A DNA stretch of 20,380 nucleotides. It comes from a virus. A program made the position numbers and the translations under genes. The stretch is from the IMG/VR virus record IMGVR_UViG_3300023257_000822, positions 1-20,380 of that record, one strand, 5' to 3'. Shown here one piece after another: positions 11,539 to 20,380 of this stretch. The notes beneath the pieces are model-generated. The model was not told where the DNA came from and searched no databases. It worked only from the letters and a program-made list of their open reading frames with translations. Each line of letters opens with the position of its first letter. Position 1 is the first letter of the stretch.

Positions 11539-12807
11539 TTATACGAAGTCGAACCTGCACCACGAGCGGGGGCGCTTGATCCCGAACTGGGGCCACGCCA
11601 CCAGCCGGAACTCACGGGCCAGGGAGCTCTCCATCGGGCGGCCGGACTGAGCCTGCGGGCCCGCCCAGTGGGGGACGCTGCTGATGCTCACCACCTGCAG
11701 CTTGTCCTTGTCGCCAGCGTAGATGCTGTCCCGGGGGCAGTTTCGATCCCCGATGCACTCGATGATCCCGGCCGGGGTAGCGACCTTGATCACCTCGTAG
11801 CCCAGGGTGGCCACCACCTTGCCGTTCTCGGCCTTGAAGGGCACCTGCTTGTAGTACCGCTCCACGCTGCCGACGGCGTTGATCAGGCGCCGGATGCGGA
11901 AGGGGTTCATGAAGCAGGTGTTCATCACGCCGCCGCCGCGTGAGACGTACTCGCCGGCCAGCTGCAGGGCGTCATCCTCGTTGAAGCCGGCGTAATCGCC
12001 GCCAGCCGCATCGGAGAAGTAATACCCGGCCAGGCTCGTCCGGTTGACCACCCGGTTGTAGCCGAAGATGGTCGAGTTTGCCGTGAACTCGGCGGTGGTG
12101 GGGATCCAGGCAGCGAAGCCCAGGAAGCTCAGGCGGTCGGCCGCGGTGACATAGTCACCCTCGGTGAAGATGAGGTCCCCAGCGGCGATACCGGCCGCCA
12201 GGCTGTTCGGGGAGAGGGCCAGGGTGACCGACCCGGCCAGCTCGTCCACGCGGGTGACGGCCAGCGGGGTGGTGCTTCGCAGGGCAGAGGCGGCATTCAG
12301 GGCGAAGACCAGCTGTTGGCCCTCGTGGAAGTTGACCACGTCCAGGGCGTCAGCGAACAGCAGGGTGGTGGTGCCCAGGGCCGCCGTGGCGCTGATGGCC
12401 CCGAGGGAGCCTGAACCATCACCGAACATGTTGCGCCCGCAGCTGTTGCGAAGGGCGGTCAGCGCGCCGTCCGTCTGCACCTTCATGGTGTTTCTGATGG
12501 CCTTGGCGCTGGTGTTGGAGCCCGCCAGCAGCTTCTCGCCGATCTGGATCACGCTGTGATCATCGGCAAAGGTCATCGGGAACTTGGCATGACGCACCCG
12601 GCCGGCGTTGCGCTGGGCCACGGCGAAGGTGTTGCTCCGCCCCGGGATGTCGTACTCGACGTAGAACGAATAGTCCTCGCCTCCGCCATCGGTGGACTTC
12701 GCGGCGGCCATCCAGGCCGGGTTGTAGTTGGCAACGGTGCTTTCGAGACGCCAGGGCGCGTACATGTGCTTGAGTGCGTCCCAGAGTGCGTAGGTGGTAA
12801 CAGCCAT
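11539..12807 (-). CDS. Major capsid protein (HK97-fold type, inferred)
   Basis: 422 residues. The ATG follows AGGAG at good spacing, inside the longest gap in the window. The N-terminus (LKHMYAPWRLESTVANYNPA) and the central block GALTALRNSCGRNMFGDGSGSLG have the layout of many phage capsid proteins, where a helix leads into a mobile G-x-G-S-G stretch. The rest is mixed beta and alpha (for example EGDYVTAADRLSFLGFAAW and VERYYKQVPFKAENGKVVATLGYEV). Size and order agree: it lies directly downstream of portal and scaffold genes, is followed by a strong hairpin, and is preceded by a 104-base gap. I infer the HK97 fold; I cannot see the fold itself. Confidence 0.85.
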   Translation of the reverse strand: MAVTTYALWDALKHMYAPWRLESTVANYNPAWMAAAKSTDGGGEDYSFYVEYDIPGRSNTFAVAQRNAGRVRHAKFPMTFADDHSVIQIGEKLLAGSNTSAKAIRNTMKVQTDGALTALRNSCGRNMFGDGSGSLGAISATAALGTTTLLFADALDVVNFHEGQQLVFALNAASALRSTTPLAVTRVDELAGSVTLALSPNSLAAGIAAGDLIFTEGDYVTAADRLSFLGFAAWIPTTAEFTANSTIFGYNRVVNRTSLAGYYFSDAAGGDYAGFNEDDALQLAGEYVSRGGGVMNTCFMNPFRIRRLINAVGSVERYYKQVPFKAENGKVVATLGYEVIKVATPAGIIECIGDRNCPRDSIYAGDKDKLQVVSISSVPHWAGPQAQSGRPMESSLAREFRLVAWPQFGIKRPRSWCRFDFV

Positions 12808-12911: not shown

Positions 12912-13859
12912 CTAGAGCTTGGCGCCGCTTCTGATGGCTTTGTCCAGGTAATCCAGCACGTCTTGTTCGGCTTGTTCGGCGGTTACTACCCGCTCCTCGG
13001 TGATCGGCTCCCCGTTTAGGTCGCCGGTGATCGCTTTGCTGGGTGGTGCCCCGAGATCTACTGGCGCGGGTGGGGCGGCCTGGCTTGGTGTGCCCAGCTT
13101 GGACCTTACGTGATCCTCGAATATTTTATTCTTGAGAAGTTCATTGATGTTTGTCAAGACGTTTCCCTTGACCTCCGCCTCCGCACTCACGAGGATTCGA
13201 TCAAAGGACGCCTGATCGGGCATCGCGCCGGCGCCCTGGATTCCCACCGCGTTGCGGGCCTGAACATGGGCCAGCACGCCGCGGTAGACGGCCTGCACAC
13301 CCTGGGTTCCAGTGCTCGCCAGAACGGGGTGGCTGTCCGCTTTTTCGGCCAGGACGGAGGCCAGGCGCGCATGCTCCGCGTTAACGTTGGCCGCCCGGGA
13401 TGCGTCGTTGTCCGCTGCGTCCCGGTCATCCAGGCGCTTCTGCATGGCCGCGATCTGGGCCGTGACGTCCGGAGCCTCCGGGGTCCCGCCCAGGGCGAGC
13501 TCCGTTGCCGCGCCAGCATCGAAGCCCAGGGCCTTCAGGGCCGCGCGCTGCTCCTCCGGGGTTCCAGAGACGCCCTGCTTCAGGGCCCGGAACTGATCCA
13601 GCTCGTGCTGCTGGGCTCGCAAGGCCACGCCTGCGTCATGCTGCTCTCGGTCCTTGCGCTCCAGCTCCAGGCGGGTGGCCTCATGCGGATCAACAGCCAG
13701 GGGGTCCACCACGGGGGGCGGATCGGGCTCGCCCAGCACCGCGGGGGTCACCGGCTCCGGCGCCACGGGGTCCAGCGTGGACATGTCCGGGTCTTCTACG
13801 GGGGGAATCCCGCTCACTTCAAGCTCTGCTGCCGCCTCTTGATCCAACTGGTCTGGCAT
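12912..13859 (-). CDS. Capsid assembly scaffolding protein candidate
   Basis: 315 residues from the second of two adjacent ATGs (13862 and 13859). AGGAGGAG sits right before them, and the second gives the better spacing. The first 65 residues are acidic and proline-rich (probably disordered); a long charged, Gln/Ala-rich helical region follows (about 65-215, ERKDREQHDAGVALRAQQHE and later MQKRLDDRDAADNDASRAAN). The C-terminal helical part includes LLKNKIFEDHVRSKL and an end rich in Glu and Asp with a basic last turn. This low-complexity, charged, coiled-coil profile between portal and capsid genes is typical of phage scaffolding proteins, which bind the inside of the procapsid and leave or are cleaved on packaging. 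No protease motif was seen. Confidence 0.75.
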   Translation of the reverse strand: MPDQLDQEAAAELEVSGIPPVEDPDMSTLDPVAPEPVTPAVLGEPDPPPVVDPLAVDPHEATRLELERKDREQHDAGVALRAQQHELDQFRALKQGVSGTPEEQRAALKALGFDAGAATELALGGTPEAPDVTAQIAAMQKRLDDRDAADNDASRAANVNAEHARLASVLAEKADSHPVLASTGTQGVQAVYRGVLAHVQARNAVGIQGAGAMPDQASFDRILVSAEAEVKGNVLTNINELLKNKIFEDHVRSKLGTPSQAAPPAPVDLGAPPSKAITGDLNGEPITEERVVTAEQAEQDVLDYLDKAIRSGAKL

Positions 13860-13872
13860 CATCTCCTCCTGG

Positions 13873-15774
13873 CTATTGTGGGATTACTGGCTCGGGTAAA
13901 ACATCCGGGGGCATCCCCGGGGGCATTCCTTGGGGTGGAGCGGGTGGGCCGCCGGCGCCCTCTGGCGGCATCTGCTCCGCTGCCTGCATCACTTCCATCT
14001 GCATCTGGCGCTTGGCTACCTCCTCCTCCTGCATGGCCTGGGCCTGATCAATCCAGTCCTGAAGGAGGCTGATCCGGTCCTCCGGGTACTTGTACGACTT
14101 GGCCCGGAACATCGCGGCAGACACCCGGTCGATGATCCCCTGCTGCATCACCATGTAGGGCTCAGGGCTCTGCTCCTCGCCTTCCAGCATCTCCTCGATC
14201 TGGCGGTCCACATCGTCAATGGCCGCCGTGGCCAGGCTGTCGGAGTGCTCCAGGTCGGGGAAGGAGAGCAGCTTGCGCGCCTCCTCCTTGCTTGTGACGA
14301 ATCCGCCCTTCTCCAGCCGCTCCACCGTCTCCAGGCGCCCCGTGGGGGTGATCGGGAGGAACGAGGTGGGGAACACCTGCAGCTCGTAGGCGGTGCGATC
14401 CAGGTCAATCTCAGACCACTTGATCTCGCTGTAGCCGTTCTTGGTCCTGGATCTGCTGACGTGGTCCCCCAGGTCCTTGCATGCCTCAACCGTCAGGTCC
14501 GCGATGTCCATGAAGAAGTTCTCCCAGCTGGTGGACAGCAGGGCATGGCGCCCGGTCTCAAGGTCGGCCAGGGTATTAAGCGCCCGGCCCGACTCGATCC
14601 CGGCAGGCTTGACGCTGGTGGCGCTCATCTGAGAAACGCCCTCGCTCTCAAAAATCCACTCTCGGAGTTGGCCTACAAACCTGAAGACCTCCGAGTTGAT
14701 GCTGGTGGGCATCTCCACCACGGGTTTGACGTTGCCCTCGTACTCCACCAGGTCCCCATTGACGTTGCGGATCTTGTCGGGGTTCAGCTTCGCATCCTTC
14801 GGGGCGATGATCTTGGCATTACTGAACAGGTGCATGGCTCCCTGGACCCGGCGCAAGAGCTTGTTCAGCTCCATCTGAAGGGGCTCCTCACTCTCCATGA
14901 CGCCCTGGCTGTAGAAGCCCAGCACCGGCTCAGACCATCGGAGGAAGGCGAACGGGTAGTGATCTCGGTCGTACTTCTCCTTGTACAGGGTCGCGCCCTT
15001 GATCACGCAGCAATGCTTGCCGTCCCCAGCCTTGGGCCCGCTGGGGAGGTGCCAACCCTCGATCACCTCGATGATGTCCGTCACCCGGGCCACGGACCCG
15101 TCACCGGCCGAGACCTCATCGGTGAAGTCCCCGATGGCGCCCATGATCTCCTCTTCCTTGTCCGGGTATCGGGCCTTGAGCACGCCGGCGCTCACATAGG
15201 CCACCTGGTACAGGGTGCGCGGGATCTCAGCGGTGAGGTAATCGGTCTCCGGGACGATGATCTGCCCGGGGAACACCCGCTCGAAAACAACCTCTCCGTC
15301 CCTCGCGTAGACGGCCATGGCCCCCAGGTCCATGATCCCGGCGTCGTGGAACACCTTTACGGCCTTGCGGTAGACGTTGCCCTTGTACCACTCGCCCTGG
15401 ACGGCCTTCTGCATCTGCTTGGCCTGGCGCTGGAGCTTCCAGGCGTCCGGGTCGCTGATGCTGGTCAAAAAGGTAGGGGTGATCTTCTGAGCCGCGATGC
15501 GGGCGGCCAGGGTCTGCACGCACGACCGGGCAGGGTTCAGGTAGAGCTGCTTTTCGCCCTTCAGCGCGTTGCGCCACCTCGTGTCCTCATCAACCTCGGT
15601 TCCAGGAATCCATCCTGAAACGTCCTTGTTGAGGTAGGCGGACATGTGCCGGCGCAGCTTCACATTCCGCTGATCGATGTCCTGGCGCAGCTCCCCAATG
15701 GTCTCGTAAACGCCCAGGTGTGGGGTTTTTGTCTCCCACCAATGCAGGTTCGATTTCTCATTATTAGAAGTCAT
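13873..15774 (-). CDS. Portal protein
   Basis: 633 residues from the ATG at 15774, which lies inside the last codons of the terminase gene (11-base overlap) with GGTGAG four bases upstream. A longer start at 15846 would add 24 residues that are clearly terminase sequence read in another frame. The protein has the mixed alpha/beta, highly charged profile of podovirus portals: a wing-region opening (LRRHMSAYLNKDVSGWIPG), then YLNPARSCVQTLAARIAAQ, LRWSEPVLGFYSQGVMESEE and a long helix LEHSDSLATAAIDDVDRQIE. The last 35 residues are Met/Pro/Gly repeats (GMPPGMPPDVLPEP), probably a flexible tail. Portals form the dodecameric channel through which terminase pumps DNA. Order terminase-portal-scaffold-capsid supports the call. 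Confidence 0.88.
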   Translation of the reverse strand: MTSNNEKSNLHWWETKTPHLGVYETIGELRQDIDQRNVKLRRHMSAYLNKDVSGWIPGTEVDEDTRWRNALKGEKQLYLNPARSCVQTLAARIAAQKITPTFLTSISDPDAWKLQRQAKQMQKAVQGEWYKGNVYRKAVKVFHDAGIMDLGAMAVYARDGEVVFERVFPGQIIVPETDYLTAEIPRTLYQVAYVSAGVLKARYPDKEEEIMGAIGDFTDEVSAGDGSVARVTDIIEVIEGWHLPSGPKAGDGKHCCVIKGATLYKEKYDRDHYPFAFLRWSEPVLGFYSQGVMESEEPLQMELNKLLRRVQGAMHLFSNAKIIAPKDAKLNPDKIRNVNGDLVEYEGNVKPVVEMPTSINSEVFRFVGQLREWIFESEGVSQMSATSVKPAGIESGRALNTLADLETGRHALLSTSWENFFMDIADLTVEACKDLGDHVSRSRTKNGYSEIKWSEIDLDRTAYELQVFPTSFLPITPTGRLETVERLEKGGFVTSKEEARKLLSFPDLEHSDSLATAAIDDVDRQIEEMLEGEEQSPEPYMVMQQGIIDRVSAAMFRAKSYKYPEDRISLLQDWIDQAQAMQEEEVAKRQMQMEVMQAAEQMPPEGAGGPPAPPQGMPPGMPPDVLPEPVIPQ

Positions 15775-17245
15775 TCCACTCACCTGATCCCTGGTCCTCG
15801 AGGCTATCGAAGTACTCCTGACGCATCTTCTTTGATTCCCGGGCATTCATCTCGCTGGCGGTGAGCACCGTTTCAGGCTCAACCTCGCCCCGTAGATAAT
15901 GCCGCGCATGGCGGAAGGCCACAAGGCGAGCATCGCAGCAGTCATTGGGCATCCCGGGCTGTTCCACCCACGTCCCGTCCGGGCGGTATTTCTTGACCAG
16001 CTTCGTGGTCTCCTCAACGCTTGGGCTCTTTTCTGGCTCCTGAACTGAAAGCCGGCCCTCCGCGGCCTGGCTGTTGAAGATGTCAATCCAGGTCCGCTTG
16101 TCCCACCGCTCGGCCTCCATGATGGGCAAGCCGTGGGCCAGGCGCAGTTCGTTGAAGACCTCCAGGTTGGAGGAGTCGCCCACCATCTGGAACCTGCCGC
16201 CCTGGGCCTCATCCACCGGGTATGATGCAACACACTCGCGGATCACATCAGCGAACGGCTTGAGCAGGAGGAATGATTTTTTCCAGCTCCAGATCTCTAC
16301 CAGGTGTCCACTGTTCTCGCGCCACCCGTTGAGGCTCAGGGCCTTGGCATCATTCCACCCGCTATCTATTCCAAGGACATATCGATCAGACGGCTGCGGT
16401 TTCCAGATGTGCGGATATTTGTTGAGCTTGAAGGGGTCGAACCTGTAGACCTTTTTGCCCAGCTCTTGAACCCAGGCCTTAAAGTAGGTCCGCAGGGTTT
16501 TCGGGTCCTCCATGTACTTGGGGTTGACCCTGGCCTTCTCTGAGAGCTCATCAGCAAACTGGCGGGCCATGTGCGGGTTCTGGGCCGTGGTCCAGGTGTG
16601 CACCTTCCACAGCTCTGCCTCGGGGGCCTTGAGGGTGGCGTGAGGCCGCCGCCCGGAGAAGATATCTTTGTAATCGAATTGGTGGGTGAGCTCATAGTGC
16701 AGGCCCATGGGGATGATGCCCGGGATGCTGGCAATCCACATCGTGCCGTTGTCGTGGTCCAGCGTTCCGGGGTACAGGACGTCCTCTACCAGGTCGTTGG
16801 TCACGGCAGGCATGAAGGCCGCCTCATCCACTGCGGCGCTCAGGATGGCGCGTCCGTACAGCTTGTAGATGACGGCCAGACGGTTCGCGCCGTAGAGCTG
16901 GATGGTGCTTCCGCCCGGCAGGGTGATCCTCAGCTTCTCCTCCTGGAACCGAACATCACGGCCTGGGACCATTCCCACCAGGCGGCAGATCTTCTTTAGG
17001 ATCGGCCAGGCGATGGCCTCGGCAGCATCGAAGGTGAGGCTGACGAAGACGCTCATGCTGTTGATGGTCAGCAGCCCCTTGACCATCATGTCCGCGAGGA
17101 TGGTGAAGGTCTTTCCAGCTCGGCGGGTGGTCCAGAGGCACTTGCGCCTGTTGGTGTCCGCTGCGGCAGCCATCTGGTAATCGAATAAAAGCGCGGCTAT
17201 GGCTGCAGCAACTCGGTTGCGCTGTGATGAGGTCCAGCGGCGCAA
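15764..17245 (-). CDS. terL: Terminase large subunit (packaging ATPase and nuclease)
   Basis: 493 residues if started at the TTG at 17245. All expected motifs are visible. The Q-motif-like FDYQ is at 21-24, a Walker A variant TTRRAGKTFT at 39-48, and Walker B VDEA at 139-142 (D140, E141). IASIP at 171-175 could be the coupling motif. The RNase H-like nuclease acids are D294 in GIDSG, D357 in GDSSN and D438 in NDCCDAR. This is the motor that cuts concatemeric DNA and packs it through the portal. The start is odd: the frame is bounded by the upstream gene's TAG, immediately followed by the TTG, with no clear ribosome site. The next ATG (17173) would remove the FDYQ motif and leave only about 15 residues before Walker A, so the TTG, or readthrough of the TAG, looks more likely. 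Confidence 0.93.
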   Translation of the reverse strand: MRRWTSSQRNRVAAAIAALLFDYQMAAAADTNRRKCLWTTRRAGKTFTILADMMVKGLLTINSMSVFVSLTFDAAEAIAWPILKKICRLVGMVPGRDVRFQEEKLRITLPGGSTIQLYGANRLAVIYKLYGRAILSAAVDEAAFMPAVTNDLVEDVLYPGTLDHDNGTMWIASIPGIIPMGLHYELTHQFDYKDIFSGRRPHATLKAPEAELWKVHTWTTAQNPHMARQFADELSEKARVNPKYMEDPKTLRTYFKAWVQELGKKVYRFDPFKLNKYPHIWKPQPSDRYVLGIDSGWNDAKALSLNGWRENSGHLVEIWSWKKSFLLLKPFADVIRECVASYPVDEAQGGRFQMVGDSSNLEVFNELRLAHGLPIMEAERWDKRTWIDIFNSQAAEGRLSVQEPEKSPSVEETTKLVKKYRPDGTWVEQPGMPNDCCDARLVAFRHARHYLRGEVEPETVLTASEMNARESKKMRQEYFDSLEDQGSGEWNDF

Positions 17246-17500
17246 CTACTCAGGCGGCGCCTGGTCCGGCGCATCGGTCTCGGCGGCGGCCTTGGCCGGG
17301 GTCTTGGGCGGGGCGCCGTAGTGGACCTGCTTGACCATGCACCAGGGCCACAGGTCGGTAATGTGGCCGGTGTCGTAGACCTCCACGCCCTCGGCCGTCA
17401 GCTTGAAGGTGTAGCGGCCGCCAGCGGGCTTGAAGTGGTCAGCGCCGGCGCCCGGCATCATGCGGATCATCTGGATCTCGGGTTTCTTCTTCGGGGGCAT
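17246..17500 (-). CDS. Small unknown protein just upstream of terminase
   Basis: 84 residues with an ATG behind a strong AAGGAG site. A basic, Met-rich start (MPPKKKPEIQMIRMMP) is followed by a short beta-like core (GRYTFKLTAEGVEVYDTGHI, then LWPWCMVKQVHYG) and an Ala/Pro-rich acidic tail. No known family recognised. It is in the same reading frame as terminase and separated from it by only a TAG stop, so translation of the two is probably linked. Small genes in this position sometimes encode packaging or head-completion helpers; nothing in the sequence shows that here. Confidence 0.65.
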   Translation of the reverse strand: MPPKKKPEIQMIRMMPGAGADHFKPAGGRYTFKLTAEGVEVYDTGHITDLWPWCMVKQVHYGAPPKTPAKAAAETDAPDQAPPE

Positions 17501-17508
17501 GGTTCTCC

Positions 17509-17991
17509 TTACGACTGGTAGATCCTGGGCTGCTGGGCCTGCTCGTCGGCCCGGTCGGCATCCTGCTCCGCCTTGGCCGCGACGTGGTTCTGGTACTCCT
17601 CAAAGAGGGTGATCCCGATCTCGTAGTTCTCCAGATCCAGGCCCTCGAGGATCACACCAGCGATGGTGGAGGCGTCCACCAGGGCCACCAGCTCCTGGTC
17701 AACCTCGTTGGGAACGTGCATGGGTTCCGACCTGATCAGCACCACGTCCCCCTCCTTGTACAGCATCGGGGCCCGCTCGCCAGTCGGGAGCATGCGGCCC
17801 AGGCCGACGGCCGCCACCATGCACAGGTTCATCGTGTACTTGGCGGCCTCCTTCTCCGGGATGAGCAGGCCCTGGGTGCCGTCCTTGGCCGTGAAGGCGT
17901 CGCCGCCCACCAGCATCTCACTGGTCCTGCGCATGGTGCGCACCAGGTACTGACCCTCGCCCGGGCCGATCTTCAGCTTGAAATCGCTCAT
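17509..17991 (-). CDS. GroES-like (Cpn10-fold) protein, possible phage co-chaperonin
   Basis: 160 residues; ATG with a strong GGAGG four bases upstream. The core (about 10-113) follows the GroES plan. A GLLIPEKEAAKY segment (41-52) sits where GroES has its mobile loop ending in GGIVL. Then come LCMVAAVGLGRMLPTGE (57-72), which matches the GEVLAVGNGR strand pair, LYKEGDVVLIRSE (77-89), matching the conserved VGDIVIF turn, and a terminal LVDASTIAGVI (104-114), matching ESDILAIV. The last 40 residues are a charged, probably disordered tail absent from GroES. Phage co-chaperonins (T4 gp31 and others) replace GroES so that the host GroEL can fold the phage capsid protein. The location near head genes fits, but the similarity is remote. 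Confidence 0.55.
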   Translation of the reverse strand: MSDFKLKIGPGEGQYLVRTMRRTSEMLVGGDAFTAKDGTQGLLIPEKEAAKYTMNLCMVAAVGLGRMLPTGERAPMLYKEGDVVLIRSEPMHVPNEVDQELVALVDASTIAGVILEGLDLENYEIGITLFEEYQNHVAAKAEQDADRADEQAQQPRIYQS

Positions 17992-18036: not shown

Positions 18037-18888
18037 CTATCGCGCGCGGAGCTCAAAGGGAAGCTCGGCGCACTGGAACCCGGCACCTCCGGCGTGTCCG
18101 CCTCCGCCCAGGGCCTTGCAGGTGGCGCCCAGGTCAAGCCCTTCCTTGTCTGTGAACAGGTTCACCGTCCACTTCTCGGCAGATGGCGACCAGCGAAACA
18201 AGCACATCGCGTCGTACTTGTCAGCGTCCCATACGGAGTCGAAAAACTTGCTGTTACTCGGCCCGGTATTGGCGGCCAGAAGTTTTAGTTCTCCCAGGGT
18301 GGTATCGAAGCACAGGTGCTTGGCGTGCCCGGCGTCCTGCTCTTTTTGATATTGAAGGACAGTACGGCCTCCGGACACGATTTCATTAATTCCATGGCCA
18401 TCAAATAGCAAATTCCAGTCAACCTGCTTTCGGCCTTCAATCCCAAGCCGCATCCCGTACTGAAACGGGAGGCATTCAGGATCGTGGTGGTCCCATACGT
18501 CGTACTCGGCAAGAAGCTGCACGGCCCGGGGAACGGCATCATTCGGGAATAGATACTGCCAGGTTAGGGCGCAGGCGCCGAGGCCTGTAGAAGCAAGGCC
18601 TGCAAACTGAACGTGTGTCCCGTCCATCACGGATGAGCAGTGATCCGTGATGGCGCTCTTGTGGTGGTCAATCCAGGTCAGCGTGCACATGCCGTTTAGG
18701 CGGACCATGTCCACAAAAGGCTGAAGGCTGAAATCAACCATGAAGACAACCTCGTCATCCTTGATGTCATCCCAGGGGAAAGGCTGGCCGTGGTCTATGC
18801 CGATCATCTCGCAGCAGGGATGCTTTCGCAGCACGATGGCCGCCGAGCACTTACCGTCGAGATCCGCCGAGTGATAAAAACACTTCAT
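18037..18888 (-). CDS. DHH-DHHA1 family phosphoesterase (NrnB-like)
   Basis: 283 residues from the ATG at 18888, which overlaps the previous stop (TGATG) with GGAGG six bases upstream. An in-frame ATG at 18891 and a longer start at 18960 are less well placed. All landmarks of the DHH superfamily are present. They are H6-SAD-LDG (D9 and D11), VDFS (D52), the name-giving WIDHH (D74, H75, H76), EYDVWDH (D130, D133 and H134), and in the C-terminal DHHA1 domain the GGGGHAGGAGF loop (261-271). These enzymes use two metal ions, usually Mn, to hydrolyse short RNAs, pAp or cyclic dinucleotides; the layout is closest to the NrnB / COG2404 group. The substrate is not readable from sequence. Degradation of a host defence signal, recycling of nanoRNAs or nucleotide salvage are all possible. 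Confidence 0.85.
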   Translation of the reverse strand: MKCFYHSADLDGKCSAAIVLRKHPCCEMIGIDHGQPFPWDDIKDDEVVFMVDFSLQPFVDMVRLNGMCTLTWIDHHKSAITDHCSSVMDGTHVQFAGLASTGLGACALTWQYLFPNDAVPRAVQLLAEYDVWDHHDPECLPFQYGMRLGIEGRKQVDWNLLFDGHGINEIVSGGRTVLQYQKEQDAGHAKHLCFDTTLGELKLLAANTGPSNSKFFDSVWDADKYDAMCLFRWSPSAEKWTVNLFTDKEGLDLGATCKALGGGGHAGGAGFQCAELPFELRAR

Positions 18889-19370
18889 CATCCACCTCCA
18901 GAAAACGCCACGAAGTACGGGTTCCACTGCAGGCCGTACCCCTTGCAGAGCTTGGACCACAGCTTCATGTTCCGCTTCGTGAGCTTGGTCTCATGCGTCA
19001 CGTACCCGGGCGCCACATGATCACCCCAGAGCTGGTCCAGCAGACCGGAGAGCACGCCCTGCTTGCGCCACGGGTTGCGAACATAGGCGAAGTGCAGCAC
19101 CCGGAAGGGGCCCACCTTACCGCCGCAGGCGAATCCGTAGATCTGCGGCGGGAAGTCCTTGGGGTGCGCGATGATCGGGGGGAAGCGCTCAAGGAGCAGC
19201 TCTATCAGGGCGCGGTGGTCCCGGAACCTCTCCTTGGTCATGTGGGTGAAGGGGAGCACCTGGCCCGGCCGTGGCGGGCGGATGGCCTTGCACCAGCTGT
19301 CCATGACCAGGCCCACGTCCCCCTCTGGGTCGTAGGGGCGGTAGATCGGGGTGAGGCGTTGAGCGCTCAT
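18888..19370 (-). CDS. GNAT-like acetyltransferase
   Basis: 160 residues from the ATG at 19370, which overlaps the previous stop (ATGA). A longer frame to 19421 would read through the upstream gene. The best motif is LHFAYVRNPWRKQGVLSGLL (92-111): a beta strand followed by R-K-Q-G-V-L, matching the acetyl-CoA pyrophosphate loop (R/Q-x-x-G-x-G/A) of GNAT folds. The preceding PQIYGFACGG and following YVTHETKLTKRNMKLWSKL would be the usual beta4 and alpha5 parts. The second glycine of the loop is replaced (V106), so activity is not certain. Phages often carry acetyltransferase-like genes near terminase; the target is unknown. There is nothing to show whether it acts on protein, small molecule or toxin. 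Confidence 0.6.
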   Translation of the reverse strand: MSAQRLTPIYRPYDPEGDVGLVMDSWCKAIRPPRPGQVLPFTHMTKERFRDHRALIELLLERFPPIIAHPKDFPPQIYGFACGGKVGPFRVLHFAYVRNPWRKQGVLSGLLDQLWGDHVAPGYVTHETKLTKRNMKLWSKLCKGYGLQWNPYFVAFSGGG

Positions 19371-19882
19371 CGTATGTTGTCCCCTGCAAGGGATGCCAGC
19401 CCCTTCGCAATCCTCTTCCACTTCTTGACCTTCTTGGTGAGCTTCTTGATATCCGACTCCAGACCATCGGCCCGCTCTGCCTCTATTTCCCGGGCCTCAT
19501 CAGAATCAACCAGCTGGCAAAACTTCTTCTTGATCTCGCACACCTGCTCCCGGGCGGCCTCGGCCTTCCCCTTCCAGTCATCGGCTCGCTTGACGGATGC
19601 TTTGCTCGCCACCTTGATCCTGGCATCCAATCCACGGATCTGCTCACGGGATGAGATGTTCAAGGTCTCGACGACATCCATCAGCCGCTCAAGCTCCTTT
19701 GTGCGATCCGCCAGGGTCTGGCCGACCTGCAACAGGCCGTACCTGATGGATCGGGCATCCATGACGCCGCCGAGCTCAAGGATTGTTGCCGCGGGGGACT
19801 TCTCACAGATCTTGATCAGATGCGAGAATGCCCCGTAGATCTCGGTGATGGCCTCGGCTTGCCTCTCTTCGCTCTTGGTCAC
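19367..19882 (-). CDS. Coiled-coil protein of unknown function
   Basis: 171 residues. The start is a GTG that overlaps the previous stop (GTGA) with GGAGGAA directly upstream. The protein is highly charged and helical. Residues about 50-100 (TLADRTKELERLMDVVETLN, SREQIRGLDARIKVASKASV) and 100-165 (a Lys/Glu-rich stretch with two cysteines, ending in DIKKLTKKVKKWKRIAKGLA) look like coiled coils. The C-terminal third is strongly basic (KKLTKKVKKWKR), which could bind nucleic acid. No family recognised. It lies between the zinc-knuckle-like and GNAT-like genes, overlapping both, so the three are very likely co-translated. Confidence 0.65.
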   Translation of the reverse strand: MTKSEERQAEAITEIYGAFSHLIKICEKSPAATILELGGVMDARSIRYGLLQVGQTLADRTKELERLMDVVETLNISSREQIRGLDARIKVASKASVKRADDWKGKAEAAREQVCEIKKKFCQLVDSDEAREIEAERADGLESDIKKLTKKVKKWKRIAKGLASLAGDNIR

Positions 19883-20292
19883 GCTTCCTCCGTGGGGGGT
19901 GCCCCGGCGTAGGGGTCAGGCGCGGCAGCTGGAGCGCCAGCGGCGGGCGGCCTTTCATCCTCGGGCGCTGCCTTCTCCGACGCCTTGAGCGCGGTCTCCA
20001 TCAGCTTCGCCACGGCGGCGCCCTGCTGGGGGGTCATCTTCCCCTCCATCGTTCGCACCGCGGCCTGGGCCGAGATCCGGGCGATGTCCGACGCGGTCGG
20101 GTTCTTCGGGATGTCGATGCCACCGGATGAGCCGTTGCCCCCTGGCGTCCTGGCCTCCGGGTGGACCTGGGCATCATCGGGGTGATTCTGGCAGAACGGA
20201 CGGGGGGCCTGACGGGGGCGCCTGCACCGATGGCCGGCCCCTGTTGCGGCCTGGCATTGATTCTCCGGGGTGACGGTGTAGTGGCGACCCAT
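19879..20292 (-). CDS. Cys/His-knuckle protein; possible small-terminase-like or DNA-binding role
   Basis: 137 residues from the ATG at 20292; an ATG at 20355 gives 158 residues, but the extra leader would translate the dyad repeats upstream. Neither has a good ribosome site, so the start is uncertain. The N-terminal part has C13, C23, C34 and H37 in the pattern C-x9-C-x10-C-x2-H (QCQAATGAGHRCRRP then FCQNH), a G-x-x-C-R...C-x-x-H knuckle that I recall from small phage and bacterial proteins and that probably binds zinc. After a flexible Gly/Pro linker comes one helical domain (67-108, SDIARISAQAAVRTMEGKMT then GAAVAKLMETALKASE), then an Ala/Pro-rich tail. It could be the small terminase subunit, which is otherwise missing from the window, but no such family is recognised. 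Confidence 0.6.
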   Translation of the reverse strand: MGRHYTVTPENQCQAATGAGHRCRRPRQAPRPFCQNHPDDAQVHPEARTPGGNGSSGGIDIPKNPTASDIARISAQAAVRTMEGKMTPQQGAAVAKLMETALKASEKAAPEDERPPAAGAPAAAPDPYAGAPPTEEA

Positions 20293-20303
20293 GTCTGCAT
20301 AAT

Positions 20304-20341
20304 TGCCCCAGGCAATTGCCAATTGCAAGGTAATTGGGGCA
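20304..20341. promoter_or_regulatory. Nested dyads upstream of the operon's first gene: operator-like
   Basis: Within 38 bases there are an outer inverted repeat (TGCCCCA at 20304-20310 and TGGGGCA at 20335-20341) and an inner perfect dyad, GCAATTG-C-CAATTGC (20312-20326), overlapping the palindrome GGCAATTGCC (20311-20320). The patch is AT-rich compared with the rest of the window. A weak promoter-like pair reading left (TTGCAA, about 18 bases, AATTAT) overlaps it. An operator or promoter of the leftward operon is a reasonable reading; if the first gene starts at 20355, the dyads would instead be in coding sequence. Confidence 0.4.
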
Positions 20342-20380
20342 CATTGCCTCGCCATTTTGGGCGTTTCGTCAGGAACTGCT

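Follow-up and report, generated by a model that had tools for sequence, protein, structure and literature searches.

The question raised by this locus is whether a tailed phage known only from uncultivated material encodes, just ahead of its packaging and head genes, a co-chaperonin of its own. The window, that is, the whole stretch of DNA that was analysed, is a virus contig of 20,380 bases; it was classed as linear and is without end repeats, and is therefore probably a fragment. The sequence-only reading of this DNA had proposed a remote GroES-like protein at positions 17509-17991 on the basis of a series of motifs, and all of them are present in the open reading frame, which lies on the minus strand: GLLIP at residues 41-45, VAAVGLGR at 59-66, GDVVLI at 81-86 and a closing strand at approximately 110-114. 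The ORF starts with ATG, is immediately preceded on its 5' side by a GGAGG ribosome-binding site (CTGGAGGTAGCATG) and is one of a row of phage genes on that strand, and we judged it to be a real gene. The results described below indicate that this phage carries its own copy of GroES/Cpn10, the lid protein of the bacterial protein-folding chamber, and we consider it highly probable that the product is a co-chaperonin of this family which most likely caps the GroEL of the host, with the capsid protein as likeliest client.

Family membership was supported by several searches. The Cpn10 model PF00166 matched the ORF above its curated cut-off (E 5e-7), the match spanning residues 39-114 of the protein and positions 21-93 of the 93 in the profile, and the PHROG family annotated as "co-chaperonin GroES" matched at 1e-5. 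The NCBIfam GroES models matched weakly and did not reach their own cut-offs, the expected behaviour for a diverged sequence. With phmmer, the protein retrieved the Cpn10 of Thermus at 1e-4 and the GroES of E. coli at 5e-4; a profile built from three relatives reached GroES at 4e-5, and profile-profile comparison (hhalign) against a small GroES alignment gave a probability of 93% (E 3e-7). A small Cpn10 profile built in this analysis served as control: this ORF scored 23.1 bits against it, the next best of the 375 six-frame ORFs of the window 2.7 bits, and the highest-scoring of 2000 shuffled versions of the protein 7.1 bits. Judged by these sequence comparisons, the match is well beyond chance.

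The predicted structure points in the same direction. Modelled from an alignment of three sequences with modest confidence (pLDDT 58), the protein shows a predicted GroES-like barrel with the strand order of GroES, the confidence being lowest at residues 25-53, the expected location of the mobile loop. Among solved structures, the top 29 PDB chains found with Foldseek were all Cpn10/GroES (best E-values about 4e-4 to 1e-3), and a fold search of BFVD was led by viral co-chaperonins, several of them of 125-141 aa. In VIA-align, GroES chains scored Z 7.7-9.2, T4 gp31 6.3 and 5.8, and a chain of a chloroplast ClpP complex (7ekq) 6.7. Chains of the alcohol dehydrogenase family also appear further down the ranking, at Z of about 3-5 (5.2 at most), so that the match might be to some other family with a GroES-like fold; the N-terminal domain of zinc alcohol dehydrogenases would be one example. 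We regard this as exceedingly improbable, given that the best Cpn10 chains score well above these (69-86 residues aligned) and that the significant sequence-profile matches are all to Cpn10, with not a single dehydrogenase among them. The sequence-only reading had named two outcomes that would refute it, the lack of a significant Cpn10 hit and a predicted fold with another order of strands; both were checked, and neither was obtained.

In reading direction, the co-chaperonin gene is followed by a small ORF and by the genes for the large terminase, the portal or connector, a protein in scaffold position and an SU10-type capsid protein (Table 1). It had been placed beside the terminase; it does precede the packaging and head genes, but as the second gene before the terminase, with the 84-aa ORF in between. 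This small ORF found no family match in Pfam and PHROG searches; its product shows 29-45% identity among relatives, and a small ORF occupies the equivalent spot in Xanthomonas phage PBR31. The ORF in scaffold position likewise gave no convincing family match in Pfam and PHROG.

Table 1. Coordinates of the co-chaperonin gene, its protein regions and the neighbouring genes in the window
Feature	Position	Strand	Basis or remark
Cpn10/GroES-like co-chaperonin, 160 aa	17509..17991	-	PF00166 30.1 bits against a cut-off of 21.1; phrog_3188; GroES fold match Z ~9
Mobile-loop region, residues 25-54	17830..17919	-	Model confidence lowest at 25-53; aligned with E. coli GroES
Roof hairpin, residues 63-80 (GLGRMLPTGERAPMLYKE)	17752..17805	-	Gapless alignment to GroES 44-61, equal length
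Conserved extension beyond the Cpn10 domain, residues 117-142 (GLDLENYEIGITLFEEYQNHVAAKAE)	17566..17643	-	20/26 identical, three relatives
Charged, variable tail with terminal IYQ(S/A), residues 143-160	17512..17565	-	2/18 identical among relatives
84-aa ORF between co-chaperonin and terminase	17246..17500	-	Same place in two relatives; evolves fast
Large terminase subunit, TTG start	15764..17245	-	phrog_2, E 2e-16
Portal / head-tail connector	13873..15846	-	phrog_332, E 4e-13; phrog_156; PF12236 and PF23899 below cut-off
Probable scaffold	12912..13862	-	Assigned only from its location between portal and capsid
Major capsid protein, SU10 type, 422 aa; candidate substrate	11539..12807	-	PF17236 29.6 bits against a cut-off of 24.1
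DHH phosphoesterase-like gene	18037..18960	-	phrog_4771, 1e-29
177-aa gene, motif reminiscent of GNAT acetyltransferases (WRKQGVLSGLLDQL)	18888..19421	-	Kept in L007 and L008
158-aa protein, possibly the small terminase subunit	19879..20355	-	Cys/His motif and MTPQQG stretch; relative at L007:80-499

The other genes of the window add some observations on the phage itself. The DHH phosphoesterase-like gene lies between the co-chaperonin gene and the gene preceding it, and is absent from the corresponding place in two related contigs, L007 and L008; it was therefore gained or lost in this phage. The 177-aa gene upstream of it had no match in Pfam and PDB searches. In a collection of 50,697 phage records, the terminase found just a single, weak match, to cyanophage S-2L (32% over 29%), and the major capsid protein found none, which places this phage group far from the sequenced isolates.

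The co-chaperonin itself recurs in related viruses. Three contigs (L002-L004) encode a protein identical to that of the window, and L007 and L008 encode relatives of 146 and 160 aa with 66% and 59% identity, respectively, both of them above the PF00166 cut-off (25.6 and 30.6 bits) and both with the same arrangement of co-chaperonin, small ORF and terminase. The dN/dS ratio was approximately 0.34-0.37 between the window and these relatives and 0.20 between the two relatives; values of about 0.2-0.4 denote purifying selection, and the protein has thus been maintained. Beyond this group, viral contigs were scanned with the protein itself, with the alignment and with each of the relatives as query, which recovered only the same virus and the two relatives (a hit of 26 residues in L013 was taken as a chance match), and no relative was found in the prokaryote genome contigs searched. 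A tblastn search of the 50,697 phage records with the co-chaperonin gave no match either, which shows only how far the sequence has diverged. GroEL was not found in five related records, among them a 37-kb contig, and the co-chaperonin therefore most likely caps the GroEL of its host, although the records are fragments and a GroEL gene might lie elsewhere in the genome.

The alignment with E. coli GroES also permits the functional regions of the protein to be located. A mobile loop with a putative GroEL-binding hydrophobic tripeptide can be recognized, the tripeptide LLI (residues 42-44) aligning at IVL (25-27) of GroES and reading LII in L007 and LAI, with a central alanine, in L008. In an alignment of the relatives, the PBR31 co-chaperonin and E. 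coli GroES, strand 1 and the glycine of the tripeptide are separated by 11 residues in E. coli, by 23 in the window protein, by 14 in its L007 relative and by about 28 in that of L008. Conservation in the loop region is below that of the barrel, and the relatives differ by 14 residues in loop length. All three relatives keep the roof hairpin and, at the right place, a hydrophobic tripeptide, and a gp31-type protein devoid of a roof was rejected since the hairpin is present in the alignment. Towards the C-terminus, the sequence-only reading had described a disordered charged tail that GroES lacks. Such a description would suit only residues 143-160, which are variable and charged, and not residues 117-142, which in the alignment are the most conserved part of the protein: across the three relatives, identity is higher in this extension than in the barrel (32/62), the loop region (9/30) or the last stretch. 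A helix is predicted with low confidence at residues 130-152, and comparison of the extension with PHROG gave nothing convincing, a lone weak match (E 0.035) being obtained with one of the three sequences.

Could a protein with these features have left the service of GroEL? A Cpn10-fold protein repurposed for a structural role or for packaging, for instance as a decoration or terminase-associated protein, would explain both an extension more conserved than the barrel and a loose mobile loop of varying length, and the position of the gene beside the terminase would suit it as well. We nevertheless deem it improbable, because a hydrophobic tripeptide and the roof hairpin are retained in all three relatives and because the loop of gp31, a working co-chaperonin, also exceeds the GroES loop in length (PMC6318259). 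A different matter, compatible with the main explanation and in fact an alternative inside it, is that a working co-chaperonin might serve another phage protein, such as a tail, scaffold or terminase protein, rather than the capsid. In CRP-901 and in Shewanella/Vibrio siphophages, GroES lies among other head and tail genes and not beside the terminase, and the authors of the B8b study propose capsid or tail roles (PMC4294664), whereas the precedent of gp31 favours the capsid protein (PMC6318259). We hold a client other than the capsid to be possible, if on the whole doubtful.

Under the preferred reading, as a co-chaperonin that works with the GroEL of the host, seven copies of the protein would form a dome, their mobile loops would dock through the LLI tripeptide onto the apical domains of host GroEL, and the dome would close the folding chamber around phage proteins made late in infection, most likely the major capsid protein. 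The link with capsid folding is drawn by analogy, that with T4 gp31 being a plausible one, and a GroES gene upstream of a terminase-portal-capsid block would fit capsid folding as the need of the phage. The conserved C-terminal extension might add a contact of its own. It is tempting to speculate that it is a working module dedicated to, for example, the capsid protein or the outer surface of GroEL, which would turn the protein into a client-specific lid, but we consider this unlikely enough to be put forward only tentatively.

Phage GroES genes are widespread, and the present one is a diverged but otherwise ordinary member of a kind known in many phages. In the phage collection, 90 records match E. 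coli GroES, although some are likely host sequence. The placement before the terminase is not new either: in the isolate Xanthomonas phage PBR31, where PBR31_00017 is also a Cpn10, the order of GroES, small ORF, terminase, portal, scaffold and capsid is identical. The PBR31 co-chaperonin differs in being 107 aa long, with a short loop and without the C-terminal extension, and shares 23% identity with the window protein. Among marine phages of 50-60 kb, GroES belongs to the 13-gene core of the HTVC023P-type pelagiphages (PMC9599517) and is an annotated gene in the CRP-901-type roseophages (PMC10149686); in CRP-901 it sits with genes of the head region, a long way from TerL, and encodes a protein of 134 aa with an N-terminal addition and no such C-terminal extension. 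GroES is known in siphophages too (PMC4294664).

With cellular GroES/Cpn10 (E. coli, Thermus thermophilus), the window protein shares the barrel strands, a roof hairpin of equal length and the hydrophobic tripeptide after the mobile loop, yet it is only 30% identical to E. coli GroES, has more residues before the tripeptide glycine and carries approximately 44 additional C-terminal residues. The co-chaperonin CocO of phage RB49 acts with the GroEL of its host and has a mobile loop longer than that of GroES. The same is true of the phage-encoded T4 gp31, which in addition has no roof loops (PMC6318259). The window protein keeps the roof hairpin absent from gp31 and is therefore nearer in anatomy to cellular GroES than to gp31; its fold match to gp31 is weaker than that to GroES. 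The known picture of phage co-chaperonins is left unchanged by the addition of a diverged lineage, whose distinctive features, a conserved extension and a long, variable loop, may offer a simple system for studying how these proteins are tuned to the GroEL of the host and to their clients.
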